The translations under genes and the position numbers were made by a program. DNA of 45,107 nt from an uncultured Prochlorococcus sp. (GTDB taxonomy: Bacteria; Cyanobacteriota; Cyanobacteriia; PCC-6307; Cyanobiaceae), in NCBI GenBank assembly GCA_902565305.1, contig CACFEJ010000010.1:1-45107 (forward strand). Direction: 5' to 3'. Position 1 is the first letter of the stretch. Each line of letters begins with the position of its first letter. This document shows positions 5,333-30,995 of the stretch, piece by piece. The notes below the pieces were generated by a model. The model did no database searches. It was not told the DNA's origin and saw only the letters and a program-made list of their open reading frames with translations.

Positions 5333-5406
5333 TCGGGGCGACAGGATTCGAACCTGCGACCTAGTGCTCCCAAAGCACCCGCGCTACCAAGCTGCGCCAC
5401 GCCCCG
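5333..5406 (-). tRNA. tRNA-Pro (anticodon UGG)
   Basis: Read on the minus strand it folds as a cloverleaf. The acceptor stem is CGGGGCG (5406-5400) with CGCCCCG (5340-5334) and discriminator A. The anticodon loop is CTTTGGGAG with anticodon TGG, and the T-arm holds GGTTCGAATCC. No CCA is encoded. Its 5' half is the integration target of the adjacent element: bases 5368-5408 recur exactly at 24544-24584. The tRNA itself is intact because the element carries a matching 5' half. Confidence 0.97.
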
Positions 5407-5408
5407 CT
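5368..5408. repeat. attL: tRNA-side copy of 41-bp attachment repeat
   Basis: This covers the tRNA-Pro sequence from the anticodon loop to the 5' end plus two flanking bases. It is identical to 24544-24584 over all 41 positions and similar to 27401-27441 (32 of 41). Confidence 0.88.
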
Positions 5409-5445: not shown

Positions 5446-5576
5446 CATAGTCACAAAAAGAATTTTTTTAGTAATAACAAGCGTTTTACTTACTTATATT
5501 ATAATAGTGTCAATGGATTTAGTGCAATATCCAGTCAACCTTTGTTATAACCCGAAGACACTCTGTGGTTGCATTT

Positions 5577-5616
5577 TGCGTACAAATTGCGTACATTGTG
5601 CGTATATGTACGCAAA
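5577..5616. repeat. TTGCGTACA repeat cluster before the integrase (candidate arm-type sites)
   Basis: TTGCGTACA occurs at 5577-5585 and 5588-5596, a variant GTGCGTATA follows at 5598-5606, and the inverted TGTACGCAA lies at 5607-5615. The same TTGCGTAYA unit occurs twice at 24461-24480 at the other end of the element. The cluster ends 4 bp before the ATG at 5620, so it also covers the integrase promoter or leader and could serve autoregulation. Confidence 0.6.
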
Positions 5617-5619
5617 TTA

Positions 5620-6957
5620 ATGCCCAAACTTAAAAATAATGAAGCATGGGTAAATGGTTTTAAGATGGCCATTAGGTCTTCTACTGCAAAGGGTTGGACT
5701 GTTAGAGAACATAGAGGACTTGCAAGATTAGAGGTAAGAACTGGTGAAGGAATGAGATCTGCACAACTAATGAAAAATAATATTCCTTTTTCTTACTCTG
5801 CCCAAGACATGGGAGATATTATTACGCGGGTTAGGAATATCTATGTAGAGATGGCTAATAATGGCGGTGATTTTGATTCAGCTGTTTCTGTATGTGCGGG
5901 ATTAGCTCCTAAATTAACTTATTCTCATGATTGGGTTCGTGCTAAAGAAGATTTTGAAAAATATAAAAAAGAGATGGGAACTGGTATTAAAGATATAACT
6001 TGGACTAAAGAGTATGAACCTGTCATTGATTATGCAGTTAACTTATTAAAAACCAAAGATGCTCCAATAAATGCAGATAAATTATTAGAAATTTGTGCAA
6101 AAAATGGAATTGAAAAAGTTACTGACTTTATGGCAAGAAATAATATTGCACCAAAACCATTAACTTATGAACTTGGTGGTAGAGCTAGAGAACAAAGAGT
6201 GAGAAATCTTGCTTCTTTTTTAAAATATTGCGTTACTAAGAAAACTTATCCTAATCAATGGCTTCCACCAGATGACTTAAGAGAATACATTGGAAGACCA
6301 TCTGTAAAAGCTAAAAAAGCTAAAAATAAAAAAGCATCAATAGAAGATCAAGAGTTTATTAATTTAATAAATTCTCTACCAACAGAAACAGGGCAACCGC
6401 ATCACATAATCGCTGCTAAAAAATGGGTTAATGCAATGAAGCTTTGTGCTGTTTTTGGTTTACGACCTATTGAGTTAAGACACTTGATTTATAAAAAGAG
6501 AAAAGATGAACTTTGGTGTATGTATGAAAAAAGATCGGGTCAGGGCGTAACAAAACCAAGAATATTAGAACCTCTTTATTTAGTTGATAATGATGGCAAT
6601 GTTCATTATGAAGAAGTAGTCAGATTGTACAAAGCGGGTCTATTAGAACTTCCCTATCAATGTATGCCAGATTGCAAAACTGTTGAGGGTGTTGGTGATC
6701 AGATGGGTAAATGGTTAAAACAGAAAGCGGGTTGGATTTCTCTTAAAGCATTAATGGCTAAAAGAGGTGAAAGTCTTGGTTGTTATAGCTTTAGACATTC
6801 TTATTCATTACGAGGTCATCAATTAGGAATTGATGCGGGAAGTGTTGCTGATGCAATGGGGCATACATTAAGAACACATCTTGAATCATATTATTACGCT
6901 AAAACTACAACTACTAAAAAAGCATTTATAAAAGCTAGAGAACTTCAAGCGGTTTAA
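5620..6957 (+). CDS. Tyrosine recombinase / integrase of the tRNA-Pro element
   Basis: 445 residues from ATG 5620. An upstream in-frame TTG at 5569 is rejected because it would translate through the TTGCGTACA repeats. The C-terminal catalytic domain has 'FGLRPIELRHL' (first Arg near 282), 'CYSFRHSYSLRGH' (second Arg near 392), 'AMGHTLRTHLESYYYA' (His near 415) and the Tyr nucleophile in the YYY run at 424-426. The first His of the usual H-x-x-R box is a Tyr (YSFR), as in some phage-type integrases. The N-terminal 240 residues are helical and would bind core and arm DNA. Placed next to tRNA-Pro and reading inward, it should catalyse insertion and excision at the 41-bp repeat. Confidence 0.9.
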   Translation: MPKLKNNEAWVNGFKMAIRSSTAKGWTVREHRGLARLEVRTGEGMRSAQLMKNNIPFSYSAQDMGDIITRVRNIYVEMANNGGDFDSAVSVCAGLAPKLTYSHDWVRAKEDFEKYKKEMGTGIKDITWTKEYEPVIDYAVNLLKTKDAPINADKLLEICAKNGIEKVTDFMARNNIAPKPLTYELGGRAREQRVRNLASFLKYCVTKKTYPNQWLPPDDLREYIGRPSVKAKKAKNKKASIEDQEFINLINSLPTETGQPHHIIAAKKWVNAMKLCAVFGLRPIELRHLIYKKRKDELWCMYEKRSGQGVTKPRILEPLYLVDNDGNVHYEEVVRLYKAGLLELPYQCMPDCKTVEGVGDQMGKWLKQKAGWISLKALMAKRGESLGCYSFRHSYSLRGHQLGIDAGSVADAMGHTLRTHLESYYYAKTTTTKKAFIKARELQAV

Positions 6958-11856: not shown

Positions 11857-12000
11857 TCTAAATATAGATAAAAGGGTTTAAGGGAAAATTAAAAAGGAAA
11901 TAAGATTAGATGAAAAAAATAATAATTCAATGTAAATTAATTATGAAATAATTAGATCAAATAATTTTGATTATATAAAATAAAATTGTTGGAACTTTCA

Positions 12001-12729
12001 ATGGCTATTAAAGATCATAAAAGTTTGCAAGACTCAAGAATTCTTCTTGTTGAGGATGATAAGAGTATTAGGCTTACAGTCAGTGAAACCTTAAGCAGCG
12101 AAGGTTTTAAAGTATCAAGTTTCAAAGATGGTTTAAGTGCTTTAGATTTTATTAGTAATGATTCTAAAAATGATGTTGATCTAATAATTCTCGATTTAAT
12201 GTTGCCAGGTCTAAATGGATTAGAGATTTGTAGAAAAATAAGAAATGAAGAAAACTATACACCCATATTAATTTTGAGTGCTAAAGATAATGAATCAGAC
12301 AGGGTTCTTGGTTTAGAGGTTGGTGCAGATGATTATTTAACAAAACCTTTTGGTTTAAATGAATTAATTGCTAGATCAAGAGCCTTAATAAGAAGATCTA
12401 AACGAAATAAGAAATATATAGAAAAATCAAAAACGGTCATTGAGTTTAATCACATAAAAATGTTTTTGGAAGAATGTAGGGTAACTTCTTTTGATAGAGA
12501 AATAACATTATCTCCAAAAGAATTTAAATTATTAGAGTTATTTATGAAAAATCCAAAAAGGGTATGGTCAAGAGATTTGATACTTGAAAAAATTTGGGAA
12601 ATTGACTTTATTGGTGATACTAAAACTGTAGATGTTCATGTTAGGTGGCTCAGAGAGAAATTAGAAGAAGATCCCTCAGCTCCAAAGTTTCTTAAAACTG
12701 TAAGAGGTTTTGGATATAAGTTTGGATGA
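12001..12729 (+). CDS. phoB: PhoB, phosphate-regulon response regulator
   Basis: 242 residues from ATG 12001; an in-frame TTG at 11986 would add five residues. The receiver domain is complete: 'LLVEDD' acidic pocket, phosphoacceptor Asp65 in 'LIILDLMLPG', and Lys in 'YLTKPFG'. The C-terminal winged helix is of OmpR/PhoB type ('LSPKEFKLLELFMKNP', 'VDVHVRWLREKLEEDP', 'TVRGFGYKF'). Its stop overlaps the start of phoR (ATGA), so the pair is translationally coupled. In Prochlorococcus this regulator activates phosphate-starvation genes. The Pho boxes at 8699, 16641, 18085 and 18136 are its likely targets. No Pho box was found in front of phoB itself. Confidence 0.92.
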   Translation: MAIKDHKSLQDSRILLVEDDKSIRLTVSETLSSEGFKVSSFKDGLSALDFISNDSKNDVDLIILDLMLPGLNGLEICRKIRNEENYTPILILSAKDNESDRVLGLEVGADDYLTKPFGLNELIARSRALIRRSKRNKKYIEKSKTVIEFNHIKMFLEECRVTSFDREITLSPKEFKLLELFMKNPKRVWSRDLILEKIWEIDFIGDTKTVDVHVRWLREKLEEDPSAPKFLKTVRGFGYKFG

Positions 12730-13886
12730 GAATGAAAACACTACAAGAAGTATTATTTTTTTTACATCAGAAGTGGAAAATAAAAGTCAAGCATTTTTCT
12801 CAATCAAAAGAAAAAAAATTTGAAGTTGATAAAAATAAGTATAAAAAAACTATTGATTTCCCATTTGATAAAATTCGACCTCAAGAAGTGTTGTCTTGGT
12901 TAGATTATTCATCGCAAGGGTGGATAATCTTATCATCTGATCTAACAATAAAATTTATCAATCAGAAAGCTTTATCTCTTATTAGGGTTATCAAATATCA
13001 AGATGTTATTGGAAAAGCAATTAATGATATTAATGAGCTTGAAGTACTTAGTAATAAAATTCTATATTTAAGAAAAAAAGATTTCCCATTCAACCTTGAT
13101 TTCGCAATTGCGGGAGTACCCATTTCGGTAAATATTGTTAGAGGAAGGAAAAAGAATTATTTAATATTATTGGAAAGTAAATTATCAATTGAATCGATAA
13201 AAAAACGACAAAATCAATTAATTAATGATGTGTCTCATGAACTGAAAACTCCTCTTACATCACTTATCTTAATTGGGGAAAGACTTGAATCAGTAGTATC
13301 AAAGAAGGATAGGTATCTTGTTAAAAGACTTAAGAAAGAGTCAAAAAGATTAAGAAAAATGGCCGAAGAGACTTTAGAGCTTTCTAAGCTGGAAAGTAGC
13401 GAAGATTTTAATAAAAACAAAAAAATATCTATTTCAGATTTGATTATGGAATCTTGGCAAACACTAAAACCGCTTGCAGAAAAAAAGGATATAAAAATAA
13501 ATTTACTTTCTCCAACAAAATATTATATATCTGGGGATATTGAAAATTTAAAAAGAGCATTTATAAATATTTTAGATAACGCTATTCGTTATTCCCCAAC
13601 AAAAGAGGGCATACAAATTGAAATTTTTAAGAGAGCTAGCTCTGTTGTTATAAGAGTTAGAGATAAAGGTATTGGATTAGAAGAAAATGAATCAAATGAC
13701 ATTTTTTCTCGATTTTATCGTGGGGATCCATCAAGGACTAAATTTAAGAAAAGTGGAAGTGGTTTAGGTCTTTCAATTACAAAAAAAATAATTAATAACA
13801 ATAAAGGTTTTATAAAGGCATTTAATCATAAAGATGGTGGAGCGATTATTGAAACTATCTTTCCGTGTCTTAATACAGATTTATAG
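12726..13886 (+). CDS. phoR: PhoR, phosphate-sensing histidine kinase
   Basis: 386 residues. A PAS-like sensor region (about 55-150, 'WIILSSDLTIKFINQKAL') precedes the dimerisation box 'NDVSHELKTPLTSL' with phosphoacceptor His171, then the ATPase domain: N-box 'NILDNAIRYSP', G1 'VRDKGIGLEEN', F/G2 'GSGLGLSITKK'. No transmembrane segment is evident. The N-terminus ('LQEVLFFLHQKW') is at most weakly amphipathic, so the kinase is probably cytoplasmic or peripheral. It overlaps phoB by 4 bp and ends 7 bp from a convergent gene. Known role: phosphorylates PhoB under phosphate limitation. Confidence 0.92.
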   Translation: MRMKTLQEVLFFLHQKWKIKVKHFSQSKEKKFEVDKNKYKKTIDFPFDKIRPQEVLSWLDYSSQGWIILSSDLTIKFINQKALSLIRVIKYQDVIGKAINDINELEVLSNKILYLRKKDFPFNLDFAIAGVPISVNIVRGRKKNYLILLESKLSIESIKKRQNQLINDVSHELKTPLTSLILIGERLESVVSKKDRYLVKRLKKESKRLRKMAEETLELSKLESSEDFNKNKKISISDLIMESWQTLKPLAEKKDIKINLLSPTKYYISGDIENLKRAFINILDNAIRYSPTKEGIQIEIFKRASSVVIRVRDKGIGLEENESNDIFSRFYRGDPSRTKFKKSGSGLGLSITKKIINNNKGFIKAFNHKDGGAIIETIFPCLNTDL

Positions 13887-13893
13887 GGAAAAT

Positions 13894-14220
13894 TTAAAAA
13901 ATATTAGGACATGATTTTTCTGCAATAAATTTTTTTAAATTTAAAACCCCATCTCTCGTAAAAAGAATGCTTCCTTCTTTGGAGTCATCTGCCCAATAAG
14001 AATCTCTTTTACCAATAGCTAGCCAAAGCCTATCAGGTAATGTTGGCATGTACATACTCTCGAAAGCAGAGGTTCCAATGTCATTTTCTTCTTTCATATC
14101 TTTGCATGCTTCAATCATTAGTGTAGGACGATTTAAATAATACCTAACACCCTGCCAATAATATTTTGTTTCAGCTTTGACTGGGGCGATGAAGAATATA
14201 ATAAATAGAATGTATTTCAT
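13894..14220 (-). CDS. Small secreted protein of the pho cluster, unknown
   Basis: 108 residues with signal peptide ('MKYILFIIFFIAPVKA'). The mature part has two Cys ('IEACKDMK', 'EKSCPNIF') likely in a disulfide, and a block 'YMPTLPDRLWLAIGKRDSYW'. It sits convergent to phoR and downstream of the phytase-like gene's terminator, so it needs its own promoter. A small hypothetical gene in this place is typical of high-light pho clusters. No family recognised. Confidence 0.65.
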   Translation of the reverse strand: MKYILFIIFFIAPVKAETKYYWQGVRYYLNRPTLMIEACKDMKEENDIGTSAFESMYMPTLPDRLWLAIGKRDSYWADDSKEGSILFTRDGVLNLKKFIAEKSCPNIF

Positions 14221-14251
14221 GAATGAATTTTATTTAATTATAAGAATTGCC

Positions 14252-14280
14252 AAAAAAAAACCACCTTTTACAAAAGGTGG
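14252..14280 (-). terminator. Rho-independent terminator of the phytase-like gene
   Basis: CCACCTTTT (14261-14269) pairs with AAAAGGTGG (14272-14280) around a 2-base loop. On the minus strand it is followed by a run of T (complement of the A-run 14252-14260). A T-run also follows on the plus strand, so it may work in both directions. Confidence 0.85.
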
Positions 14281-14295
14281 CTTTTTTTAGTTTTA

Positions 14296-16578
14296 CTAGA
14301 TTTTTCCAATATTTAGGAAAAGAGTTTCTCCAGTTGATTTCTTTCCAGTCCCATCATTGTCAGTTGAAATCCATGCTTGACCGTCGTTTGTTATTGCTAA
14401 ACCTTCAACCTTCTCGAGGATAAAACCACCAGTAGATTTCATAACTGGTTTTAGATCAGTAACTAACTCTTTTTCAACTAAAGGATAAAGTCTGGGAGGA
14501 ATATTAGTCTGAAGACCTTCGAAAATAACATCATCTAAATCTACTTTATATATAGCTTTCAATTTTGCTTTCTTTCCATAGAAACTATCTCTTTCGATTA
14601 CATAAAGTGCCCCGTCATGGTAAGTCAATTCTGAAATGCCAACGCCACCTTTTTTGATCCTATCTAATTGATAATTTACGGCCCCCCACTGTTTGGTTTT
14701 TAAATTATAGGAAAGGATCTTAGTAGTATTGAAAGTATCATCACCCCAAGGCTTCTGTTGAGCAATATAAAGAATATCCCCATTCCTTGTTATGCCTTCA
14801 AAACCAGGATTTTTAGCATAATTAAGATATGAAGGTGGTGGAGTTATCTTCTCTAAAATTTCACCATCTGAGCTTACATGGTAGATTGCAGGAGGATGTT
14901 CATCTAGCTTTTTCTTGATTCCTTCAGTAGAAATGTAGAATCCACCATTACCATCAGTAGTAATACCCTCTTGATCCATAAATAATGCAGTCTTACCATC
15001 TAGCTTTATATCTATAGCTCTTTCTAATAGTGCTGGGGAAGATGAAGGATCAATAACGTAAATTCTTGGCTGAGTTTTAAAAGTTCCATCATTTACAGCA
15101 TAAATTTTACCGTCATCACCAGCCACCATTCCACTTATCGCACCCCAAGATACAAATTCAAGGCCATTTTCATTTGTTAAATGTGGGTATGAAGCAGGAG
15201 CATCTTGTAGTTGATAAATAGTCACATGAGAAGATAAACCAGGTTCTTTTTTGTTGTAGTCTTTTTCATTTGCTGAGGCAATTAATCCCCTCTCTGGAAT
15301 TGCGACAAATCCCTCTGGTCCAATGCCTGATGGAAGTAATTGAGTAAGCAAAGGTTGATTTAGTTCTGTGATATCGTAAACAGCTACTATCCCAGCTCGT
15401 TCAGCACCAACAAATAAATAGGGCGTCCCATTAATTTTTGAATATGTAACTGACTCAGGTTCTACTCCCTTTTTACCTGCTCTCCCATCTTGGAAATGAC
15501 CTATTTGTGCAATTGCTCTTTCTAGTCTATTTGCATCTTCATAAACTACTGTTCCATCTTTTTTAAAAATAGTCCAGGATCTTGAACCACCTCTTTTTGC
15601 CTGATTTGGATCAATATGCTTGTAATCGCCTTCATTTGCTGTTGCGAAATGGTCATTATCAATCCAAGTAAGACCATCGGGTTCTCTTCTTACATTTTTT
15701 AGTTTGCTTTTAAATTTATGTGCTCCATCTTTCTTTGTATCCATTCCTGCCATTTGTTTTACAACTCCTGCCGAGAAATGTGATATTACATTTCCATCTT
15801 TATCAATTACTGCAAGATGGTTGTTTTCTTGAAGAGAGACAACTGTTTCACCAAGATCATTAATAGCAACGAATTCTGGTTCGGGATCAAAAGGAGCTAT
15901 TTCGGATAAGCCTGTTAAATCAACTTTTTTAATTGATTTACATTGTATTTTTCCTCTTTTGTTTAACTTCACAAGAGAAACATAACCTGGAGGATTAATT
16001 TGAATGCCATTGTCATCAATTTGAGGGATAAATCCATTTTTATATTCTTCATCCCTCTCATTCTCGATAGCGACAGCTAGAAATGTTCCGTCTGGAGAGA
16101 CAAAAACGCTATCAGGCTGTCCACCTAAATCACATTCTTTTACTGCTTTTCTTGTTTCTAAATTATATTGAACTATTGCTCCTGAAGGATTTGTATAACT
16201 TTCAGATGTATTCGAACCTATATAAGCATTGTTTCCAAGTGCTGCAATTCCAGTTGGTTCTGCCTCAAGTTCAACAACTCCCAATGCTTTAGGTTTTGCA
16301 GGGTCTGAGATATCAACTAAACCTACTACTCCTAGATCGCTATCTGTATACATCAAAGTCTTTCCATCTTCTGAAGCTGTAACAACCTCTGAAGAAGTTT
16401 TGGTTGTAGATTTTGATCCGTCTGGTAAATTGTCACTTACATTAAAAGAAGAAATTCTGTTGAAGTTTTTTTCATTTGCCCAATATTTTGTATTCCAATT
16501 TGCAAATCCGCTACTTGTAGAGGAGGCGAAGATTGCAAGTAATGCTGAAAAACTTGCAGCAACTAATGTTTTTTTCAT
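14296..16578 (-). CDS. Secreted phytase-like esterase / putative alkaline phosphatase of the pho cluster
   Basis: 760 residues with signal peptide ('MKKTLVAASFSALLAIFASSTSSGFA'). The N-terminal half is a beta-propeller of LVIVD/choice-of-anchor-I type ('LVDISDPAKPKALGVVELE', 'GQPDSVFVSPDGTFLAVAIE', 'REPDGLTWIDNDHFATANEGD'). The C-terminal half is of the 'esterase-like activity of phytase' type ('MDQEGITTDGNGGFYISTEG', 'NPGFEGITRNGD', 'EGLAITNDGQAWISTDNDG'). The many Asp/Glu-Gly loops suggest calcium-dependent phosphoester hydrolysis in the periplasm or outside. A Pho box lies 63 bp upstream (16641-16659), and the gene stands between phoBR and the porin, supporting release of phosphate from organic sources. 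Annotation as phoA or phoX would rest on context, as neither classical fold is present. Confidence 0.72.
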   Translation of the reverse strand: MKKTLVAASFSALLAIFASSTSSGFANWNTKYWANEKNFNRISSFNVSDNLPDGSKSTTKTSSEVVTASEDGKTLMYTDSDLGVVGLVDISDPAKPKALGVVELEAEPTGIAALGNNAYIGSNTSESYTNPSGAIVQYNLETRKAVKECDLGGQPDSVFVSPDGTFLAVAIENERDEEYKNGFIPQIDDNGIQINPPGYVSLVKLNKRGKIQCKSIKKVDLTGLSEIAPFDPEPEFVAINDLGETVVSLQENNHLAVIDKDGNVISHFSAGVVKQMAGMDTKKDGAHKFKSKLKNVRREPDGLTWIDNDHFATANEGDYKHIDPNQAKRGGSRSWTIFKKDGTVVYEDANRLERAIAQIGHFQDGRAGKKGVEPESVTYSKINGTPYLFVGAERAGIVAVYDITELNQPLLTQLLPSGIGPEGFVAIPERGLIASANEKDYNKKEPGLSSHVTIYQLQDAPASYPHLTNENGLEFVSWGAISGMVAGDDGKIYAVNDGTFKTQPRIYVIDPSSSPALLERAIDIKLDGKTALFMDQEGITTDGNGGFYISTEGIKKKLDEHPPAIYHVSSDGEILEKITPPPSYLNYAKNPGFEGITRNGDILYIAQQKPWGDDTFNTTKILSYNLKTKQWGAVNYQLDRIKKGGVGISELTYHDGALYVIERDSFYGKKAKLKAIYKVDLDDVIFEGLQTNIPPRLYPLVEKELVTDLKPVMKSTGGFILEKVEGLAITNDGQAWISTDNDGTGKKSTGETLFLNIGKI

Positions 16579-16640
16579 TTAGTGCGTAAGAAAAATACAT
16601 CCCTATGCTCCCTTTAAAAAGTTAAGAAAAAAAAATAGAT

Positions 16641-16659
16641 TTATTAAGAACAATTTAAG
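16641..16659 (-). promoter_or_regulatory. Pho box of the phytase-like gene
   Basis: On the minus strand CTTAAATT and CTTAATAA are separated by 3 bp (GTT). A further CTTAAC at 16626-16621 lies on the same 11-bp lattice, two turns away. It is about 63 bp before the start at 16578. Confidence 0.5.
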
Positions 16660-16682
16660 GTTTATAAAAAGGTAAGCAAAAA

Positions 16683-16711
16683 AAAAGGACCTCTAAATTA
16701 GAGGTCCTTTT
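16683..16711 (-). terminator. Terminator of the SLH porin gene
   Basis: Perfect 14-bp stem: AAAAGGACCTCTAA (16683-16696) and TTAGAGGTCCTTTT (16698-16711) around one base. On the minus strand it runs into T's (the A-run 16677-16686). It sits 17 bp after the porin stop. Confidence 0.9.
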
Positions 16712-16727
16712 AATGAGGTTGATTTCT

Positions 16728-18032
16728 TTAGAACTTGAAACCAATTTCTGCACCGATACCAGTAGTATCATCTCCACCATTGGCTCCTTCAACTATAAAT
16801 GCAAAAGGAGTGAAACTCATACCATCATTAAATTTGTAGGTATAAGAAAGATCATAGGCATATAATTCCTCATCCCCATCAGTTATTGCACCGTTGGTAC
16901 CCATACCTACTGTGATTTCACCAGGGCCAAGATCAGAACTTAGTCCAACTGCAAATTGAGTTGTATCATTTCCTGTATCTGGGTCACCAAATTCGTATCC
17001 ACCACTAATTGTTGGAAAACCATCAGGAGAATAAGAAGCATTTATACCCCAGTAGGTTGCTACATCTACATCAGCGTAAGCGAGAGCAAGACCATAATTG
17101 TCTCCACTATAAGCAACGTTTAGAGCATAGATATCTTCACCTTCTGCTGTGAACATACCTCTAGTTGTTTCTCCATCATCAGCTGAAATACCAAGTCCAA
17201 ATGAAAAACCATTATCTAGATCGTAACCAGCACTAATTGACTGATCACCACCAACAGCAATAGAGTTTCCTGTTCCACAATCACTTAAAGCGTCAACAGT
17301 GTTTCCATAATCACATGCTCCAGTAAACTGCTTACTTGCATCCATTGAATCACCAACAGATATAGACCAACCTCCAGCTGGGAATGTGTAGTTTATGTCA
17401 GAAACTCTAAGTCTATCACTAAAATCTTTACCAAAGTCTGTTACTGCGAGGAAACTGTCTGTGTCAGGTGTATTTCCTGTTTCAATTTCCACGTTTAACT
17501 TGTCTTCACCAGTAAAACTTGTGTTTAGATCGATCTCCCAGAAATATGCAGCCATAACAGCTTCATCGTCTACACCATCAGTACCACCAATCTGGAATTT
17601 AGCTTTTCCTTTCATAGTTGTTGTTTCGGTGAAAGAACCAGCTTCAATGCCGTTAACACGTGCTTCGAGGCCATCAACTCTTCCTTTCATAATTGCCAAC
17701 TCTGAACCAAGCTCTTCACTTAATCTGTCTATTTGGGCTCCGTTCATTAAGCCTTCACCACCTGCAATTAAGTTGTTTAATTCAGCAGCAGCTTCTAAAC
17801 GAGTAACTGATTTACCATTGAATATTGGACTATTTGTTAGACCCTTTAATGAATCGTAAGCCCAATCTCCTGGGAATAGAGTATCTGATTTAAAATCACC
17901 TAAAGATACTAAATTGCTAGAGTTTGTATAATCACTAAGATCTGTTGAATTGATCTCAGCTGCATTTACTGCAAAACCTGACGCCAAAGAAATGATGGCA
18001 GGAGCAGCAATTAATTTTTGAAAAAGTTTCAT
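16728..18032 (-). CDS. SLH-domain outer-membrane porin of the pho cluster (PhoE-like)
   Basis: 434 residues from ATG 18032 ('MKLFQKLIAAPAIISLASGF'). An upstream in-frame start at 18077 would spoil the signal peptide, and the other two porins here also begin MKLF. After the signal come an SLH-type domain ('DWAYDSLKGLTNS', 'SVTRLEAAAELNNL'), a coiled-coil ('MKGRVDGLEARVNGIEAGSF') and a 16- to 18-strand barrel ending in Phe ('IGAEIGFKF'). Cyanobacterial porins use the SLH part to hold the outer membrane to the peptidoglycan layer. Its position between the phytase-like gene and pstS, with an excellent Pho box at 18085-18103, argues for phosphate or organophosphate entry. Confidence 0.88.
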   Translation of the reverse strand: MKLFQKLIAAPAIISLASGFAVNAAEINSTDLSDYTNSSNLVSLGDFKSDTLFPGDWAYDSLKGLTNSPIFNGKSVTRLEAAAELNNLIAGGEGLMNGAQIDRLSEELGSELAIMKGRVDGLEARVNGIEAGSFTETTTMKGKAKFQIGGTDGVDDEAVMAAYFWEIDLNTSFTGEDKLNVEIETGNTPDTDSFLAVTDFGKDFSDRLRVSDINYTFPAGGWSISVGDSMDASKQFTGACDYGNTVDALSDCGTGNSIAVGGDQSISAGYDLDNGFSFGLGISADDGETTRGMFTAEGEDIYALNVAYSGDNYGLALAYADVDVATYWGINASYSPDGFPTISGGYEFGDPDTGNDTTQFAVGLSSDLGPGEITVGMGTNGAITDGDEELYAYDLSYTYKFNDGMSFTPFAFIVEGANGGDDTTGIGAEIGFKF

Positions 18033-18084
18033 AAACCTCAACACGTAAAAATGGATATAAATCCAAATCAATAACAACGAATCA

Positions 18085-18103
18085 AGGTTAAGAAATGAGT
18101 AAG
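18085..18103 (-). promoter_or_regulatory. Pho box of the SLH porin
   Basis: On the minus strand CTTACTCA, 3 bp, then CTTAACCT, the last unit being an exact match to the cyanobacterial consensus unit. A third related unit (TTAACT, near 18116-18110) precedes it. A TTTATAT box lies nearer the start, at about 18053-18059. Confidence 0.6.
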
Positions 18104-18135
18104 AAATAGAGTTAATAAGGAATTTTTAAAGAGAA

Positions 18136-18320
18136 CTTAAACTTCTCTTAAAATAAATAAAAAAAAACTTCTTAAATTTTGATTTTTTTATCAAAAATCC
18201 TAAAAATAAATATTTATTCATCTTCAAATATTTTCAAAACTAAATAAAAAATGTCCAGATAATATTTAGTTTAAATTTGGGTTAAGAACTAATTAATTAA
18301 AGGATAAGCTTTTAGTTAAA
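18136..18320 (+). promoter_or_regulatory. CTTAA/TTAAG repeat clusters before pstS (candidate Pho boxes)
   Basis: CTTAAACT (18136-18143) and CTTAAAAT (18147-18154) have the 8+3+8 layout on the plus strand, and CTTAATT-like CTTAAATT recurs at 18171. Closer to pstS, opposite-orientation units GTTAAG, ATTAAT, GATAAG and AGTTAA start at 18281, 18292, 18303 and 18314, exactly 11 bp apart. A TATATAT box follows near 18346. Which cluster drives pstS cannot be told by eye. The 18033-18373 interval otherwise holds no gene. Confidence 0.45.
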
Positions 18321-18373
18321 GAGTATTTGTGTATGGATTAAGTGCTATATATATGGAGTCTTTTTATTCAATC

Positions 18374-19369
18374 ATGACACCCATGAACATAGCAAAGAAA
18401 GCTTTGGTTTTCACTTCTACAGTAGCCATCGCTGCTGGTACAAGTGTTCCTGGCACAAGCGTTTCTGCTAAAACAAGATTAAGTGGTGCTGGTGCATCAT
18501 TTCCTGCCAAAATTTACACTCGTTGGTTCAAAGATTTAGCCACTTCAGGTGGACCAAGAGTTAATTATCAAGCTGTTGGTTCTGGCTCTGGAAGAAAAGC
18601 TTTTATTGATCAAACTGTTAACTTCGGTGCATCAGATGATCCTATGAAAGATAAAGATATAGCAAAGGTTACCAGAGGTTTAGTTCAAATCCCAATGGTT
18701 GGAGGAACTATTGCTTTCGGTTATAACTATGATTGCGACTTGAAACTTACTCAAGAGCAAGCAGTAAGGGTTGCTATGGGTATGGTTAAAAATTGGAAAG
18801 AATTAGGCTGTAAATCAGGTAAGTTAACTTGGGCACATCGTTCTGATGGATCAGGTACAACTAAAGCTTTTACAAACTCTATGGAAGCATTTTCACCAAC
18901 ATGGACTTTAGGAACTGGTAAATCAGTTAAGTGGCCAGCAGGTGTTGGAGCAAAAGGTAATTCTGGTGTTGCGGGTGTTATTCAAAACACTCCAGGCGCA
19001 ATTGGTTATGTTAACCAGTCTTACATAAAAGGTAATGTCAAAGCTGCTGCACTTCAGAATCTTTCAGGTGAGTTTCTAAAACCATCTGTAGAAGCAGGAG
19101 CTAAGGCCCTTAATGGTATTACTCTAGATGAAAATCTTGCTGGTAAAAATCCTAATCCAACTGCAAAAGGAGCATACCCTATAGCTTCATTAACATGGAT
19201 ACTTGCTTATGAAGAGGGTAATGGTAGAAACACTAAAGCTATCAAACAAGCCTTTAATACATTGTTAAGTGATGAGTATCAAGATAAAGCTCCATCACTT
19301 GGATTTGTTCCCTTAAAAGGAGATATTCTTGAGAAGTCAAGAGCTGCTGTAAAAAGAATCGGTAAATAA
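18374..19369 (+). CDS. pstS: PstS, periplasmic phosphate-binding protein
   Basis: 331 residues from ATG 18374 ('MTPMNIAKKALVFTSTVAIA' signal); ATG 18383 is an alternative, and an upstream start at 18329 is rejected. Phosphate-site motifs are clear: 'SGAGASFPAKIYTRWF', 'YQAVGSGSGRKAFI', 'FGASDDPM', 'RSDGSGTTKAFTN', 'NSGVAGVIQ' and 'GAIGYVNQSY'. It binds phosphate for the PstCAB transporter, whose genes are not in this window, so this is either the sole or a second binding protein acting with a distant transporter. Strong codon bias (many GCT, GGT) and a terminator right after the stop indicate high expression. Confidence 0.95.
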   Translation: MTPMNIAKKALVFTSTVAIAAGTSVPGTSVSAKTRLSGAGASFPAKIYTRWFKDLATSGGPRVNYQAVGSGSGRKAFIDQTVNFGASDDPMKDKDIAKVTRGLVQIPMVGGTIAFGYNYDCDLKLTQEQAVRVAMGMVKNWKELGCKSGKLTWAHRSDGSGTTKAFTNSMEAFSPTWTLGTGKSVKWPAGVGAKGNSGVAGVIQNTPGAIGYVNQSYIKGNVKAAALQNLSGEFLKPSVEAGAKALNGITLDENLAGKNPNPTAKGAYPIASLTWILAYEEGNGRNTKAIKQAFNTLLSDEYQDKAPSLGFVPLKGDILEKSRAAVKRIGK

Positions 19370-19386
19370 ACCGTAAGACAATATTT

Positions 19387-19417
19387 AAAAGGAGGAATTT
19401 ATTTCCTCCTTTTTTTT
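19387..19417 (+). terminator. Terminator of pstS
   Basis: AAAAGGAGGAA (19387-19397) pairs with TTCCTCCTTTT (19403-19413) around a 5-base loop, continuing as a T-run to 19417. The stop of the convergent chrA gene (19416-19418) overlaps the tail. Confidence 0.9.
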
Positions 19418-20642
19418 ATGCAAACAAATATTTTGACAAGCCTAATATTAAAGAAAAAAGAATGAGTATGTATGTTGGAACTATTTTAAAAAAAGATAAT
19501 AGTGTTGAGATTAAAACTATAAAAATAGAGCTAATTAAAAAGAATTTTGATGAAAAACTATCTTCAATCAAATTAAATCCAGAAAAAATAACTGCTCCAG
19601 GAATTGTATTTATCACTCCTTCGATAAAGTAATTAATCGATTTAATACTGTTTTTTATTAAGCCTTTTCCAAAAATAAAAATCAATAAAAAACTTGGTAA
19701 AAAAATTGCAAAAGTTGATATAAATGAATACTTTAAAGCTTCATTTATTCCTCCGACCGAAAACCCTGCTTTGTATCCAATAAAACTTGTAATTAATAAG
19801 ACAGGCCCGGGCGTTATTTGGCTAATCATTATTCCATCTATAAATTCATTATTTGTTAACCATCCTTGCGAGATAACATAATCACTCATAAGAGGAATGA
19901 TTACTAATCCCCCTCCAAAAATAAAAAGTCCCGATTTAAAGAAGAAAAAAAACAGATTAAGGTAATCTACTAAAAACTTTGAGTTTATAGAATCTCTTAA
20001 AAAATTATAGAACTTGGAAATATCCAAAAAGGCTGAGCTAGTTAAAAATGAGGTTGTTGAAAATATAGATAAAGGGATCAAGCTGTAAAAATTATCTTTG
20101 AATTTCTTTAAAAATATATTTATCAATCCTGCAATAGTAAGAATTGTTATGAGTGGAAATTGAATACTATTATATTTGGCAAATATAAGTAGAAATAATA
20201 TTGAGTTAGAGAATAATATTCGATCAAACTTTAATCTTTTTTTTAATAGAACTAAAGAGAATGAAAAAATTATTCCTGCAATAATAGGAGGATTGAAATA
20301 AATTAAATCTGTTAAGAATTTTGATCCTGATCCAATTTGCCAAAAAAAACTAAGAGCTAATACCGAAACGAATCCTGGGATAATGAAACTTATACCCGAT
20401 ATCAATCCACCAAGATATCCATTAATTTTAAGACCTATATATATTGCTAATTGAGTAGATATTGGACCTGGAAGTATTTGACATAATCCAATACCTTTTT
20501 CAAAAGATTGAGTTGAAATCAATTTTTTATTATTTATAAGTTCATCTTCGAATAAGGAAATATGAGCATACGGTCCTCCAAAACTTAAAATACCAATTTT
20601 TAGGAAAATTTTTGCAAGTTCAATTAAGGATATTTTTGCCAT
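19416..20642 (-). CDS. chrA: ChrA-family chromate transporter (long, two-domain)
   Basis: 408 residues with two homologous halves, each starting with the CHR signature: '[17 protein letters not shown]' with '[16 protein letters not shown]' in the first, and '[16 protein letters not shown]' with '[16 protein letters not shown]' in the second. Ten or so membrane spans. Members export chromate in proteobacteria; in marine cyanobacteria the substrate is unproven and may be another oxyanion. It is the last gene of the gap-arsJ-chrA row (30 bp after arsJ), downstream of an ArsR operator, which suggests control with arsenate detoxification. Confidence 0.88.
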
Positions 20643-20672
20643 TTAAATATTCTAATTTCAAAAAATTAGTTT

Positions 20673-21932
20673 TTATGGTGATGATAAGCTTTGTTTGATT
20701 GATGGTAATTTAAGACTCGAAATCCAAGATAATAATATTAGAAGTGATGAAAAATAAAGGCAATATTGAAGACCAATACTCGGATTTCTCCCAATCATAA
20801 ATAGTAAGCCAGATAGTAATGTCCCAACTAGTCTTCCAGCAGCATTTGCCATGTAATAGAAGCCAACATTTAAACTGACTTTTTCATTATCAGAGTAGGC
20901 CAAAATCATATAAGAATGTGTAGAGGAATTCATTGCAAAAACAAATCCAAAAATAGTAAGTCCTAAAATTATTGCTATCGATGGAGAACTTTCTCTCCAT
21001 AATGCGACTCCTATCAAAGATGGTATTACCATTAATACGGCACTCCAAAATTGGATAGCTTTACGATCTGGACTTTCTTTCTGGCCCCACATCTTTCTAA
21101 TTGCTGGAGCTGAAGCCTGAACAATTCCATAACCTATTACCCAGGCCCCAAGAAATAATCCTATTTCCATGTAGTCCCAACCAAATGCCATATCTAGGAA
21201 TACTGGAAGAGCTACAACAAACCAAACATCCCTTGATCCAAATAGAAAGAATCTTGCTGCTGAAAGAATATTTATTGCATTTGATTTTGAAAAAAGATCA
21301 TTAAAAGCTGGTTTGGTTTTCATCTTGCCAATTTCTCCAGGCAAAATTAATGTCAATAAAAAGGCTAAGCAGAGTCCAAAACCCATAATTGCTACAGCAT
21401 TATTGAATCCAAATAACTTATATAAAATTCCACCCAAGAAAAAGCCAACTCCCTTAAGAGCATTTTTAGATCCAGTTAAAATAGCAACCCATTTAAAAAG
21501 TTGTTTTTGGCCAGTATCATTGCCATCATTTGTCTCTGGAACTACTGTCTTAACAGCACTTTTAGCACTCATTTTGTTTAAATCTTTTGCTATCCCACTA
21601 ACTGCTTGAGCAACCATAACGTATGCGACACTAAAAATTACTGGCCAATCTTCCTTAACTGGAATAAGCATAAAAAGAGCAATGATTTGCAGAATAGTCC
21701 CAATCCATAAAGTAAGCCTTAATCCATATCTTGCTCCTATCCAGCCACCATAAAGATTAGTAATTATTCCAAAAAATTCATAAAAAAGGAAAAGTAAAGC
21801 AATTTGTAGAGTTGTGTAACCTAGCTCATGAAAGTGCCCAACAACTAATAATCTTAATGCGCCGTCAGTAAGCGTGAACGCCCAATAGTTTGCTGTTACA
21901 ACACTATATTGTTGAATATTAGATAACTTCAT
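20673..21932 (-). CDS. arsJ: ArsJ, organoarsenical (1-arseno-3-phosphoglycerate) efflux permease
   Basis: 419 residues, MFS fold with 11-12 spans. The start 'QYSVVTANYWAFTLTDGALR' and 'LGYTTLQIALLFLFYEFFGI' are characteristic of ArsJ rather than of sugar or drug MFS carriers. ArsJ exports 1-arseno-3-phosphoglycerate made by a partner GAPDH. The partner gene is immediately upstream with an 11-bp gap, exactly the known two-gene pathway. Together they remove arsenate that enters through phosphate uptake. Confidence 0.92.
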   Translation of the reverse strand: MKLSNIQQYSVVTANYWAFTLTDGALRLLVVGHFHELGYTTLQIALLFLFYEFFGIITNLYGGWIGARYGLRLTLWIGTILQIIALFMLIPVKEDWPVIFSVAYVMVAQAVSGIAKDLNKMSAKSAVKTVVPETNDGNDTGQKQLFKWVAILTGSKNALKGVGFFLGGILYKLFGFNNAVAIMGFGLCLAFLLTLILPGEIGKMKTKPAFNDLFSKSNAINILSAARFFLFGSRDVWFVVALPVFLDMAFGWDYMEIGLFLGAWVIGYGIVQASAPAIRKMWGQKESPDRKAIQFWSAVLMVIPSLIGVALWRESSPSIAIILGLTIFGFVFAMNSSTHSYMILAYSDNEKVSLNVGFYYMANAAGRLVGTLLSGLLFMIGRNPSIGLQYCLYFSSLLILLSWISSLKLPSIKQSLSSP

Positions 21933-21943
21933 AAAGACATAAA

Positions 21944-22966
21944 TTAAATCTCTTTTTTGATTACATATTCAGTAAGATCTGCAAGTCTGCAGCTGTAACC
22001 CCACTCGTTGTCATACCAAGCGTATATCTTTAATAAATTTGAATTAACAACCATCGTTGATAAACTATCAACTATTGAACTTCTAGAGTCATTTACATAA
22101 TCTGCAGAAACTAAAGGTCTTTCTTCGTAGCCAAGAATTCCTTTTAAATAAGTTTCTGAAGCTTCCTTAAGTGCCAAATTTACTTGTTCAGTTGTCACTT
22201 CTTTATTTAATTCAAAAACTGCATCAGTTAAAGAACCATTAAGTAGAGGAACTCTCACTGCATGTCCATTTAATTTTCCTTTTAATTCTGGAAAGATCTC
22301 AGCGATAGCTTTAGCAGATCCAGTGGTAGTCGGTATTAAACTTTGCATACATCCCCTTGCTCTCCTCAAATCACTTTTATAAAAATCTACAGGAACTTGA
22401 GTGTTCGTGACATCGTGAATAGTTGTAATAGCACCGTGTTTAATTGAAAAATTTTCATTAATTACCTTTACTATCGGAGCTAAACAATTTGTAGTGCAGG
22501 ATGCTGCAGTTATTAATTTATGTTTGGAAGGGTCATAAAGACTTTGATTTATACCGTAAACAATATTAAGTGATTCAGCTCCTGCAACAATTCCTTTGAC
22601 TGGACAAGCTACTATCACTCTTTTCATCCCTAGAGAATCAAAATAAGGATTTAGTTTGTCTGCCTTTTTATTCTTTCCTGTACATTCCAAAATAATATCT
22701 ACAGAAGATTTTTCCCAAGGAACATCAAGGTAATTTTTAAAGGATGTGTAGGCTAATTTCTTTCCATCAATTATTATTTCTTCTTCTTTAACTTTTATAT
22801 CTCTCATCCATCTACCATGGACTGAATCGAATTCGAGTAGATGTGCAGCAGCATTCGAATCTCCTGCTATCTCATTTATATGAGTTATTTCTATATCATC
22901 TCTATCCCATAATGCTCTGAAAACTAATCTGCCAATTCTTCCAAAACCATTAATTCCAATTTTCAT
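21944..22966 (-). CDS. gap: ArsJ-associated glyceraldehyde-3-phosphate dehydrogenase
   Basis: 340 residues: NAD-binding '[20 protein letters not shown]', catalytic Cys157 in '[11 protein letters not shown]', '[10 protein letters not shown]', '[20 protein letters not shown]' and '[15 protein letters not shown]'. Differences from housekeeping GAPDH ('ACPVKG' for the usual SAPAK-like block, short N-terminus) fit the arsenic-operon form. It would arsenylate glyceraldehyde-3-phosphate to 1-arseno-3-phosphoglycerate for ArsJ. The gene is first of gap-arsJ-chrA and is divergent from arsR across a double operator. Confidence 0.9.
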
Positions 22967-23742: not shown

Positions 23743-24321
23743 CTAAATGAACCTTTTGATAATATTATTTTTTCTATGTTGGATATTTGCTCTAATTTTT
23801 TCGGCTAAAGTTGGAAGATTTGGTGGCTCCAGCATTAGATAAACTCTCCCAGATTTTTCTAAATAAACATAGTCTTCTAATACTTCACGGCTAAGCAATC
23901 TATATAAATTTTTGGTTGATTTATAACCTAACTTCTTCAGTTGTGTTAGTTGAGTGTGTTTGTTTAGTTCTGAATTTAGGATTTCAAAACTACAAAAAGA
24001 TAATCCATCACCTGTAGGAATTTTCTTTCTTAAATGACCACCCGCTAATGCTTGAGACTTGGTTGGGATTAATCCATGCCCATATAGTTTCCCTCTAATT
24101 TGGATGTCTATATTAATAGGCAATTTATGAGGAATATTTTTTATTGTTTTTAGAGCTTCGATTTTGTTCTTACCTTTTCTAGTAATAGCTTTAACTAGCT
24201 TTCCTTTGGTGTACATAAGACCAACAGCGCAACCATCTATCTTTGGAGTAACGATTAATCTGGTGTCTGGTAGAAGAGTTTCTAAGAACTCCTCATAGTT
24301 ACCATTGCCCATTGATGGCAA
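23743..24321 (-). CDS. Shortened NAD+-dependent DNA ligase (LigA-like adenylation domain), start unclear
   Basis: From TTG 24321 there are 192 residues. The LigA nucleotidyltransferase pattern is readable: 'KVLPSMGNG' (LigA KVPMLSLDN block), nucleotide-accepting Lys in 'TPKIDGCAVGLMY', 'TIKNIPHKLP' and 'IQIRGKLYG'. The same frame continues upstream to about 24453 with LigA subdomain Ia-like sequence ('YRKGNAKISDQEFDSLVRNL'), but that stretch has no ATG, GTG or TTG, so it uses a rare start or has lost one. OB-fold, zinc finger, HhH and BRCT domains are missing, as is the later 'DGVVIK' motif. It is the last gene inside the far end of the element, reading inward. Active mini-ligase or remnant: undecided. 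Confidence 0.62.
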   Translation of the reverse strand: MPSMGNGNYEEFLETLLPDTRLIVTPKIDGCAVGLMYTKGKLVKAITRKGKNKIEALKTIKNIPHKLPINIDIQIRGKLYGHGLIPTKSQALAGGHLRKKIPTGDGLSFCSFEILNSELNKHTQLTQLKKLGYKSTKNLYRLLSREVLEDYVYLEKSGRVYLMLEPPNLPTLAEKIRANIQHRKNNIIKRFI

Positions 24322-24460
24322 TACTTTATTTTGGTGAAAGTAGGAATTTTTAGGATCAATCCTTTTTAAATTCCTTACTAGAGAATCAAATTCTTGATCT
24401 GATATTTTGGCGTTACCTTTGCGGTAAGAAATATCAAATTCTTTGATAGTTTTGGTTAGA

Positions 24461-24482
24461 TTTGCGTATATTTGCGTACAAG
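24461..24482. repeat. Two TTGCGTAYA units at the distal end of the element (candidate arm-type sites)
   Basis: TTTGCGTATA (24461-24470) is followed directly by TTTGCGTACA (24471-24480). These are the same unit and orientation as the cluster at 5577-5606. They lie 61 bp inside the 41-bp att copy at 24544. Confidence 0.6.
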
Positions 24483-24543
24483 TGTGAATTATGAAAACAC
24501 TTATCCTAGTTACTGCAATGCTTTATGTTCTGAAGGTGGATGT

Positions 24544-24584
24544 TCCCAAAGCACCCGCGCTACCAAGCTGCGCCACGCCCCGCT
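24544..24584. repeat. attR: distal 41-bp copy of the tRNA-Pro 5' half
   Basis: Identical to 5368-5408. It covers only the tRNA from the anticodon loop to the 5' end, so it is not a working tRNA. Sequence beyond it (24585-24672) should be the flank that stood in front of tRNA-Pro before the insertion. A similar flank also follows the degenerate copy at 27401. Confidence 0.88.
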
Positions 24585-28826: not shown

Positions 28827-30995
28827 TTAATATTTAAAATAACTCATCCATTTATCAAGATAATGATTCGAATTTTTAAAATACTTTTGGTAATTTTTCC
28901 ACTTATCAATTGATGATTTATAAAGTGGTTGAACCACTTGCGAAGAAGAGGGAGTATTTATTTTCCCTCTTTCATGTGCAGTATTTCTATAATTTTTTAT
29001 ATTGTCATCCCAACTAACATCTAAGAAATTCAATATTTTTAAAATATGTTTATCAAAATCGTCTACTAAATCTTCGTATTTTGAAGTTACATAATTTATT
29101 TTTAACTTTTCAATATAGTCCAGCCAAAAACTCATAGTCAAATCATAAATTCTAGATGTTGATTCAATACTCCGGAAGTTAGACATAGCATTGTTAGGTT
29201 CGAAAGATTGTTGGAAGCATGATAAAACAGTGTCGTATGGGTTTCTATGCGTAAAAATTATTTTTGAGTTTGGAAATAATAAATTTATAAGAGGTAAGCA
29301 AACAGTTTGAAAAGGAAATTTATCAATCAATATTTTTGCATTTTTATTATCACAATTATTTCGTAAAATTTCCAAGTAGTGATTTCCTAAATAATCTAGA
29401 TCGTTACTTGTTAATTTATGCAGTTTATCAAGAGAACAATTGAATTTTGATTTTATAATTTGTTCGACCGAGTTAATTAATGGTTTTTCCTCTAGAACAT
29501 CAATTTCAGGATGGCTTCTTAAAATTGTGTCAAGCAATGTAGTTCCTGATCTAGGGAATCCTATTAAAAAAACTGGTGAATCTTTAATTATTTTTGGACG
29601 TTTGGTTTTTGCTAAAAAAGCGTCATTATCAATATTTTTTCTATAAGTGTGTATGTAATTTTGAAAAATTTTTGGATTCTTATTCTCATATTTGAGATTA
29701 AGTTGACTTTTCTCGAAACATTTAAAAGCTTCATCAAAATTTTCAACTTTTTCTTCAATAAATGCTCTAAAAGACCAAAAAAGAAGATTTGTAGAATGAT
29801 CGGTGTTTTCTATCCATTCATTAGAAACTTGGTCAATATATTTTTTTGCTTTTGTGAAATCCTTTTCTCTAAATGAGATTCTTGCTCTAAACATCAATAT
29901 CTCATTAACAATATTTTTATTCTCTTTTAAACTTTCGATTTTATTTTTTAATTTGTTTATTTTATTGGTCTTTTCATAAAGTCTAAAAAGATTTCTGTAG
30001 GCATAATTGTAGTTTTTATTGATTTCAATAGCACTAAGAAATAATTCCTCTGCTTCTGATAACTTATCTAGATCTATTTTAATTGACCCTAAATTAACAA
30101 AAGCTAATTCAAATTTTGGATTGTAATTTATTGCTTTTTCAGTATTCTTTTCTGCCTCAAGAAGTTTACCCTGCTTCGATAGAAGGGAACCGAGATTACT
30201 ATACGCAAGAGAAAAATCTGATTTTATCTCAATAGCTTTTCGGTAACATAGCTCTGCTTCAGTGTCCTTTTTTTTGTTGGAGAGAATGTTGCCTAAGTTA
30301 TTTAGTGCCATTGGTGAAGATGAATTTATACTAAGTGCCTTTCTTAAGTATTGCTCTCCTTCATCAAATTTCTCTAATTGATTTAAAACCGTTCCAAGGT
30401 TAATAAGGGCAAAATCATAATTTGGATTAATTTTAAGAGCCTCTTTTAAGAATTTTTCTGCTTGCTCAGGGTTTCCTGAATCTTTTAGGACGCAGGCTAA
30501 ATTGACTAGAGCATTAATATCTTTTGGATTTATTTCTAAACTCTTTTTTAAAAAAAATTCCGCTTTTTGGAGATTATCTTCTCCTACCAGTATTCGGGCC
30601 ATGATGGAATAGGACCTTAAATACTTAGGATTTAATTCAATAGCTTTATTCAAAATATTTTTAGCAGCATCACTTCTTCCTTTGGCAACTAGAACATTAG
30701 CTAAGTTTGGATATGCCTCTAAACAATCAGGGAATTTTTTAATTGATTCATTAAACAGCAATATTGCTTTGTCAAACTGTTTTATTTGAGAATAAATACT
30801 TCCTAAATTATTAAATATCCTAGGATCATCGATTTTTTTTTGAATTAAATGATTGTATATTTCTAACGCTTCTTTAATTTTCCCTTTTGAATGCAATGAT
30901 AATGCATTAGAAATTAAATTATCTTTTTGCAAATTATAAGTTTTTTTTTCTATTAATTTTTTGCTAGTTCTATCGTTGTTCCCAAATCCTTTCAT
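28827..30995 (-). CDS. TPR-repeat sulfotransferase
   Basis: 722 residues. Residues about 28-345 are nine or so TPR repeats with the usual A-x-x-x-Y/F-x-x-A-I-x-x-N-P pattern ('AIELNPKYLRSYSIMARIL', 'ALKINPNYDFALINLGTVL'). A sulfotransferase domain (about 473-715) has the PAPS 5'-phosphosulfate loop 'LIGFPRSGTTLLDTIL' (477-492) and the later 'KIIFTHRNPYDTVLSCF' and 'KYEDLVDD' blocks. The enzyme moves sulfate from PAPS to a carbohydrate or protein; the TPR part probably binds the acceptor. No signal peptide. It is divergent from a porin and related in plan to the enzyme at 32541, which has only weak sequence likeness. Confidence 0.87.
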   Translation of the reverse strand: MKGFGNNDRTSKKLIEKKTYNLQKDNLISNALSLHSKGKIKEALEIYNHLIQKKIDDPRIFNNLGSIYSQIKQFDKAILLFNESIKKFPDCLEAYPNLANVLVAKGRSDAAKNILNKAIELNPKYLRSYSIMARILVGEDNLQKAEFFLKKSLEINPKDINALVNLACVLKDSGNPEQAEKFLKEALKINPNYDFALINLGTVLNQLEKFDEGEQYLRKALSINSSSPMALNNLGNILSNKKKDTEAELCYRKAIEIKSDFSLAYSNLGSLLSKQGKLLEAEKNTEKAINYNPKFELAFVNLGSIKIDLDKLSEAEELFLSAIEINKNYNYAYRNLFRLYEKTNKINKLKNKIESLKENKNIVNEILMFRARISFREKDFTKAKKYIDQVSNEWIENTDHSTNLLFWSFRAFIEEKVENFDEAFKCFEKSQLNLKYENKNPKIFQNYIHTYRKNIDNDAFLAKTKRPKIIKDSPVFLIGFPRSGTTLLDTILRSHPEIDVLEEKPLINSVEQIIKSKFNCSLDKLHKLTSNDLDYLGNHYLEILRNNCDNKNAKILIDKFPFQTVCLPLINLLFPNSKIIFTHRNPYDTVLSCFQQSFEPNNAMSNFRSIESTSRIYDLTMSFWLDYIEKLKINYVTSKYEDLVDDFDKHILKILNFLDVSWDDNIKNYRNTAHERGKINTPSSSQVVQPLYKSSIDKWKNYQKYFKNSNHYLDKWMSYFKY

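Follow-up and report, generated by a model that had tools for sequence, protein, structure and literature searches.

Paired repeats at both ends of a tRNA-Pro element of Prochlorococcus as putative arm-type sites of its integrase

The tRNA-Pro element and its ends

The window (the whole stretch of 45,107 nucleotides that was analysed) contains a 19-kb element anchored at a tRNA-Pro gene, with pairs of the unit TTGCGTAYA at both of its ends (Table 1). The att core corresponds to the 5′ half of this tRNA, anticodon included, and therefore its distal copy is a displaced 5′ half of the gene. An initial annotation, made from the letters of the window, had reported repeats in the same orientation at both ends and a 41-bp core. 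Both claims held, the first with small coordinate corrections (pairs at 24462/24472 and 5576/5587, all on the forward strand), the second with a core of exactly 41 bp. The gaps between core and repeats, given there as 61 and 168 bp, are 63 and 167 bp. Of the further variants claimed at 5577-5615, GTGCGTATA at 5598 is not kept in relatives. When the element ends are joined, P arm, core, P′ arm and integrase follow each other in this order. This layout is shown by the sequence.

Table 1. Features of the tRNA-Pro element and of its surroundings in the window.
Feature	Position	Strand	Basis or remark
Arm cluster of the adjacent element, across the tRNA	5234-5284	+	TCCGTGGA at 5234-5241; TCCACGGA at 5265-5272 and 5277-5284
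tRNA-Pro (TGG), anchor	5333-5406	-	ARAGORN
att core, integrase end, 41 bp	5368-5408	+	Exact match to 24544-24584
P′ arm repeat 1, TTGCGTACA	5576-5584	+	Motif search, relatives compared
P′ arm repeat 2, TTGCGTACA, 11 bp from repeat 1	5587-5595	+	Motif search, relatives compared
P′ arm inverted copy, exact TTGCGTAYA, directly before integrase ATG	5607-5615	-	Exact in 15/16 loci, window included
Tyrosine integrase, ATG start (MPKLKNN...)	5620-6957	+	ORF also open from TTG 5569
Integrase N-terminal domain, residues 1-85; helix, three strands, helix predicted	5620-5874	+	Residues 26-50 track the unit best
Decayed NAD-dependent DNA ligase adenylation-domain gene	23743-24460	-	
P arm repeat 1, TTGCGTATA	24462-24470	+	Motif search, relatives compared
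P arm repeat 2, TTGCGTACA, 10 bp from repeat 1	24472-24480	+	Motif search, relatives compared
att core, distal end, displaced 5′ half of tRNA-Pro	24544-24584	+	Exact match to 5368-5408

Exact TTGCGTAYA occurs 6 times in the window for 0.30 expected, a number that none of 100 shuffles reached. Once one mismatch was allowed, the window gave 16 matches, which is unremarkable for an expectation of 11.4; at least as many were obtained in 11 of 100 shuffles. One of the exact copies, at 30200-30208 on the reverse strand, corrects the earlier statement that the unit was not noticed elsewhere in the window. At the scale of the genome (1.16 Mb) the motif was found at 8 places, against 12 for a reversed-pattern control, so that a single motif means little; the motif alone was dropped as evidence for this reason. 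A single TTGCGTAYA is thus not rare genome-wide, and the notable observation is the clustering: five of the eight genomic copies sit at the two element ends and the motif clusters nowhere else, so that a unit common genome-wide, an outcome which would have refuted the annotation, was not met. Also, a tandem of 9-mers with a spacing of 10-12 bp was present in only 4 of 265 tiles of 170 bp, two of which are the element ends.

The description of integrase and ligase as divergent around an attP proved half right. Six relatives examined for this gene have a ligase ORF of 240 aa that starts with an ATG within the P arm repeats, and in relatives the arms overlap both start codons. The window ligase has no such ATG, which reads ATA, nor any in-frame ATG, GTG or TTG before 24321, and its C-terminal part differs from that of the relatives as after a frameshift. 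Judging from sequence alone, this ligase is unlikely to work, because its ATG is lost and its frame is shifted. In locus L087 the ligase is decayed and the TTTGCGTACATTTGCGTACA pair intact; therefore the arms are not there for the ligase alone.

The cargo of the element (11986-22966) comprises a response regulator, a histidine kinase, phytase-like and PBP-like genes, a chromate transporter, an MFS transporter and GAPDH. This set might resemble phosphate/arsenate genes, a tentative impression to which ArsJ-GAPDH pairs are the background. On the 3′ side of the tRNA, the cluster at 5234-5284 with its TCCACGGA units belongs to a class shared with integrases such as those of L042, L147 and L159; the tRNA of the window is thus flanked by two elements with different units. 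A degenerate third tRNA-Pro 5′ half was also observed at 27419. It is devoid of TTGCGTAYA, is followed by sequence resembling that past the distal core, and is probably an older element end.

Units of relatives, tandem arrays and viral contigs

Twelve named records and three more genomes contain close relatives, with an integrase identity of 94-99%; together with the window they constitute 16 loci. The direct pair before the integrase was present in 16/16 loci (window included), and the only locus without an exact inverted copy was L007. A distal core could be located for six loci (window, L006, L069, L075, L077, L079), all of them with the pair, and in the six aligned loci the distance from pair to half core at the distal end was exactly 100 bp (window: 90 and 100 bp). 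In L068 the distal pair is present and the contig stops short of a core; the remaining loci had no distal core within the stretch examined. Seven further 5′-half core copies near or beyond distal ends lacked TTGCGTAYA. The second outcome that would have refuted the annotation, namely absence near the ends of elements with similar integrases, was not met, as the cluster is present at such ends. Nevertheless, conservation of the pair among close relatives is weak evidence on its own, because these ends are nearly identical.

When integrases 36-50% identical were inspected, nearly each one had a different unit, repeated in tandem at 11 or 12 bp directly ahead of the integrase start. These elements are arranged in tandem arrays. 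Of 265 genomes of the genus, 224 contain the 31-base core formed by the tRNA-Pro 3′ half, in up to 14 copies (one mismatch tolerated, intact tRNA genes counted too). In most of the other elements the displaced piece beside the integrase is the tRNA 3′ half, unlike the window type, to which L043 and L044 are similar. From 31 genomes, 840,037 bases were cut into 139 core-to-core elements. These comprise a subset of the core-bearing loci together with loci picked by integrase, and are not a random sample.

Both arms were detected in 88 of these 139 elements, and 76 of the 88 share one unit (a common 7-mer) at both ends. Permutation of the distal arms (300 permutations) gave a mean of 9.4 matches and a maximum of 18. 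The result was maintained after removal of near-duplicates (70/82, permutation maximum 18). In a control, the two arms on either side of a single core, which come from neighbouring elements, matched in only 3 of 65 cases. The equality of the two ends is thus shown by sequence. Twelve of the 88 elements clearly mismatch, with different units at their ends. At least one arm remained undetected in the 51 others, where the unit was recovered at the other end in 13 of 30 one-arm tests. A full-length integrase is present in 16 elements. The automatic test gave a match for 5 of these; 3 others share an 8-mer, 1 of the TCCACGGA class matches by eye, and 3 fail. The other 4 belong to the window type, for which this test does not score the distal end.

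An automatic search found a direct pair for 66 of 97 integrases with a tRNA-Pro core, or 75 of 106 including nine near-identical ones of the window type. Of the 31 misses, 18 carry at least one TCCACGGA-like 8-mer (loose test, one mismatch). Seven integrases have an exact inverted TCCACGG pair, other inverted pairs were seen by eye among the misses (L092, L143, L145, L154, L157, L176-L178), and the direct pair of L057 is located outside the scanned stretch. The direct repeats at att are spaced by 10-12 bp, approximately one helical turn.

Viral contigs of IMG/VR were also considered. A single-protein search of these contigs for related loci gave no match, and the alignment-based search gave 20 loci, in which 16 cores with the tRNA 3′ half were inspected. 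Twelve of the 16 have an equal unit on both sides (L201-L204, L207-L212, L214, L215), with 7 distinct units, TAGATTAC being shared by five contigs. In L198, L206 and L213 the units differ across the core, as expected of an array, and no clear pair was found beside the core of L216. The twelve equal-sided cores present the layout that the initial annotation had predicted by end joining, as an unintegrated attP would. No match was obtained in the phages collection for the query P0001 or for the integrase of L208. As a separate observation made by eye, a coding sequence like the end of a sigma factor gene adjoins the P arm, left of the core, in L207 and L212.

These data bear on a first alternative, that the repeats arose by chance and were kept merely by recent common descent. 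In its favor, the integrases of relatives are 94-99% identical with nearly identical ends, and a single motif is common in the genome. Against it stand the end-to-end matching over many unrelated units and the 12/16 viral cores, and this explanation can be all but discarded.

The unit and the integrase N-terminal domain

In an alignment of 30 members of the integrase family, R305, K327 and R415 are invariant, and H438 and Y447 nearly invariant. A nearly invariant Tyr (Y412) takes the place of the His with which the HxxR motif normally begins. PF00589 matches 20 of the 30 members, the window's own protein not being among them; phrog_1 integrase does match the window protein, and the whole integrase model aligns structurally to XerH, lambda Int and Tn1549 Int. 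For the N-terminal domain (pLDDT 84.9), AlphaFold2 predicted residues 26-49 as three strands between two helices. This domain had no Pfam arm-binding match, and a fold search gave no clear PDB match.

The similarity of units was compared with that of integrases for 66 proteins, leaving out L040, nine near-identical ones and those without a detected pair. The correlation was strongest for residues 1-70 (rho 0.49), ahead of the core-binding part (0.46) and the catalytic part (0.40). With the catalytic part controlled for, the N-terminus kept a partial correlation of 0.33, a value that none of 500 Mantel permutations reached; the opposite control left 0.11. In windows of 25 residues, the partial correlation peaked at residues 26-50 (0.25), followed by 1-25 (0.13) and 126-150 (0.10); the remaining windows ranged from -0.10 to 0.07, one not being computable.

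Pairs of integrases gave the same picture. At a catalytic identity of at least 0.75, the 9-mer was equal in 20 of 23 pairs whose residues 1-50 are at least 0.7 identical, and in 2 of 18 pairs when this identity is 0.5 or less; in these two exceptions (L038 and L138, each compared with L030) the units really differ by one base. Below 0.6 catalytic identity, at least 8 of 9 bases were shared by all 8 pairs with N-terminal identity of at least 0.6, and by 92 of 1709 pairs at 0.4 or less. The pairs in these comparisons are not independent, and L153, compared with L142 and L114, shows a change of unit despite 78% identity in residues 1-50. In L035 and L037/L041 the remainder of the integrase is 98-99% identical, yet the unit follows residues 1-50. 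Between L035 and L037 the catalytic part is 99% identical and the N-terminus 28-42%, with units TTTGTCCGC and TTTGACGGA. Conversely, the window and L044, from another genus, have TTTGCGTACA and much of the N-terminus in common, with a catalytic identity of just 0.48. A link between unit and N-terminal domain is thus shown by sequence, the unit following residues 1-50 and not the catalytic domain. For binding of the arm sites by the integrase, this covariation is only indirect evidence.

The phage-like attP with P and P′ arms proposed by the initial annotation is supported by three tests beyond this single element: the arrangement recurs in other tRNA-Pro elements, whose units differ from one element to another but agree between the two ends of an element in 76/88; an equal unit flanks the core at 12/16 cores of IMG/VR contigs, with 7 distinct units; and the unit changes or stays along with the N-terminal part of the integrase.

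As a second alternative, an Xis-like recombination directionality factor might bind the repeats; such factors typically recognise direct repeats spaced by one helical turn at att, and can repress the integrase promoter. The spacing of 10-12 bp and the proximity to the core and to the integrase start are in agreement with this reading, and such direct-repeat sites one turn apart are described for phage 186 Apl and others (PMC7498355). Against it stand the equal pairs on both arms and a unit that follows integrase residues 1-50 even in L035 and L037/L041, almost identical elsewhere, and we consider it highly improbable.

We therefore favor the interpretation of the repeats as lambda-like arm-type sites of the element's own integrase, with the unit serving as an address, including in cassettes devoid of integrase. 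This is very likely, although binding, the role of the sheet and movement in trans are inferred and no binding data are available. In the proposed mechanism, the circular element would carry the tRNA-Pro core between a P arm on the ligase side and a P′ arm on the integrase side, each arm with a pair of one 9-bp unit about one helical turn apart. The unit would be read by the integrase N-terminal domain, probably through its putative three-stranded sheet (residues 26-49), and the C-terminal domains would act on the core in the anticodon region. As each integrase lineage would have its own unit, the latter could serve as an address. Elements without integrase would keep this address at both ends and would probably be moved in trans by an integrase with a matching N-terminal domain.

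Elements without integrase and comparison with known systems

No match of at least 60 aa to the 113 integrases used was found in 122 of the 139 core-to-core elements, which have att cores at both ends. Such is the case for 70 of the 76 end-matched elements, with lengths of 651-8173 bp. The absence of integrase was judged against these 113 integrases only, and not against other recombinase families. Integrase-less cassettes with the TTTGAGGGA unit were found, for example, in G016. Family 57 (3269-3270 bp; genomes G002, G004 and G007) is 0.99-1.00 identical just inside both cores, with an identity of 0.39-0.48 outside the cores wherever comparable; its four ORFs of at least 60 aa include no integrase recognisable by eye. 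Similarly, family 120 presents identities of 1.00 and 0.98 inside and 0.37 and 0.34 outside, and families 67, 81 and 85 are 0.74-0.98 identical inside, with unrelated surroundings (0.16-0.45). Unlike the other families, family 103 has one outside flank, the right one, 0.73 identical. Discrete core-to-core units in different genomes are thus shown by sequence, and this identity amid unrelated neighbours indicates that the elements moved as units.

Integrase-less elements also bear on a third alternative, in which a regulator of integrase and ligase would use the repeats as operators. This reading is favored by the overlap of the P arm with the ligase ATG in relatives, and by the inverted copy that precedes the integrase ATG. 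However, equal end units occur in the 70 elements without detected integrase and beside other genes (family 57 for example), and in L087 the pair is intact next to a decayed ligase. We give this alternative very little credence. Autoregulation by the arm-bound integrase cannot be ruled out, and it would agree with the arm-site reading.

Across genomes, the 8-mer unit of 51 of the 70 integrase-less matched elements recurs beside one or more of 80 integrases. An integrase-bearing element with a matching unit in the same genome was found for just 2 of the 70, one of which differs at the last base of the unit. Therefore movement in trans by a matching integrase, which we regard as likely, stays an inference drawn from sequences, the movement being untested. 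A bolder reading, for which we see as many reasons to hesitate as to adhere, views the tRNA-Pro locus of Prochlorococcus as a system of addressed cassettes: short variable repeats at the two ends of each cassette, within its bounding tRNA cores, would specify which integrase can move it, most sampled cassettes, being without integrase, would depend on an integrase from another element or phage, and integrases would gain addresses by N-terminal exchange. If so, elements of tandem arrays would escape competition with the recombinase of their neighbours despite one common core.

The nearest precedent is the attP of Cluster K mycobacteriophages, in which two pairs of 11-bp repeats flank a tRNA-like core and arm-site differences were attributed to positions 17 and 19 of the integrase N-terminus (PMC3203893). 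Paired arm repeats around a tRNA-like core are thus common to both systems. In Cluster K, P3/P4 have the opposite orientation to P1/P2, and the comparison covered few phages, whereas the Prochlorococcus elements represent one family at one tRNA, with many units, natural N-terminal exchanges and units persisting without integrase.

Tycheposons, of the same genus, are likewise tRNA-anchored cargo elements with a tyrosine recombinase (PMC10872708, PMC11389934). The window element presents these features, the definition of tycheposons being here partly general background. The original description of tycheposons reportedly names seven anchor tRNAs. The tycheposon sections of these two papers describe no arm repeats and no unit common to both ends. 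CIMEs (PMC5704250) similarly lack integration genes, keep att sites and occur in tandem at one target gene; in contrast, the Prochlorococcus elements keep their own arm units, unlike those of their neighbours, which predicts mobilisation by a matching integrase and not by any co-located one. The ssrA islands of Dehalococcoides (PMC3146451) also form long tandem series in which a repeated gene end delimits each island and several islands lack an integration module, but they involve a serine recombinase, and variable arm repeats are not mentioned in the relevant sections. Integron CALIN arrays (PMC11389934) likewise consist of integrase-less cassettes thought to be mobilised in trans. It is generally known that attC sites are recognised as folded single strands, whereas addressing in the Prochlorococcus elements would rely on a duplex repeat unit.

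Arm-type sites themselves are of a known kind. What may be new is that they serve as a variable address, found on integrase-less cassettes as well and probably used there in trans. No report of arm repeats in Prochlorococcus elements was found in the open-access literature searched; the original tycheposon description and most subscription journals were outside its scope, and novelty thus remains unsettled. The sequence rule delimits elements within tandem tRNA arrays and predicts which integrase pairs with which element, in a very abundant ocean genus. Also, thanks to the natural exchanges of the N-terminus, the specificity with which arm sites are recognised can be tested directly. If matching integrases do move integrase-less cassettes in trans, these repeats would constitute an address system for gene flow in streamlined genomes.

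Two minor observations concern the content of individual elements. The cargo of family 57, examined by eye in L106 (2895-6170), consists of two metallophosphoesterase-like ORFs, a GTP-binding CobW-like ORF and a HesB-like ORF. In L031, L032, L034, L035 and L037, a second pair, TTGCGTAGTNTTGCGT, with a 10-bp spacing, lies between the core and the arm upstream of the integrase. This pair is similar across elements with differing arm units, and could be a candidate site for a directionality factor or a host factor.
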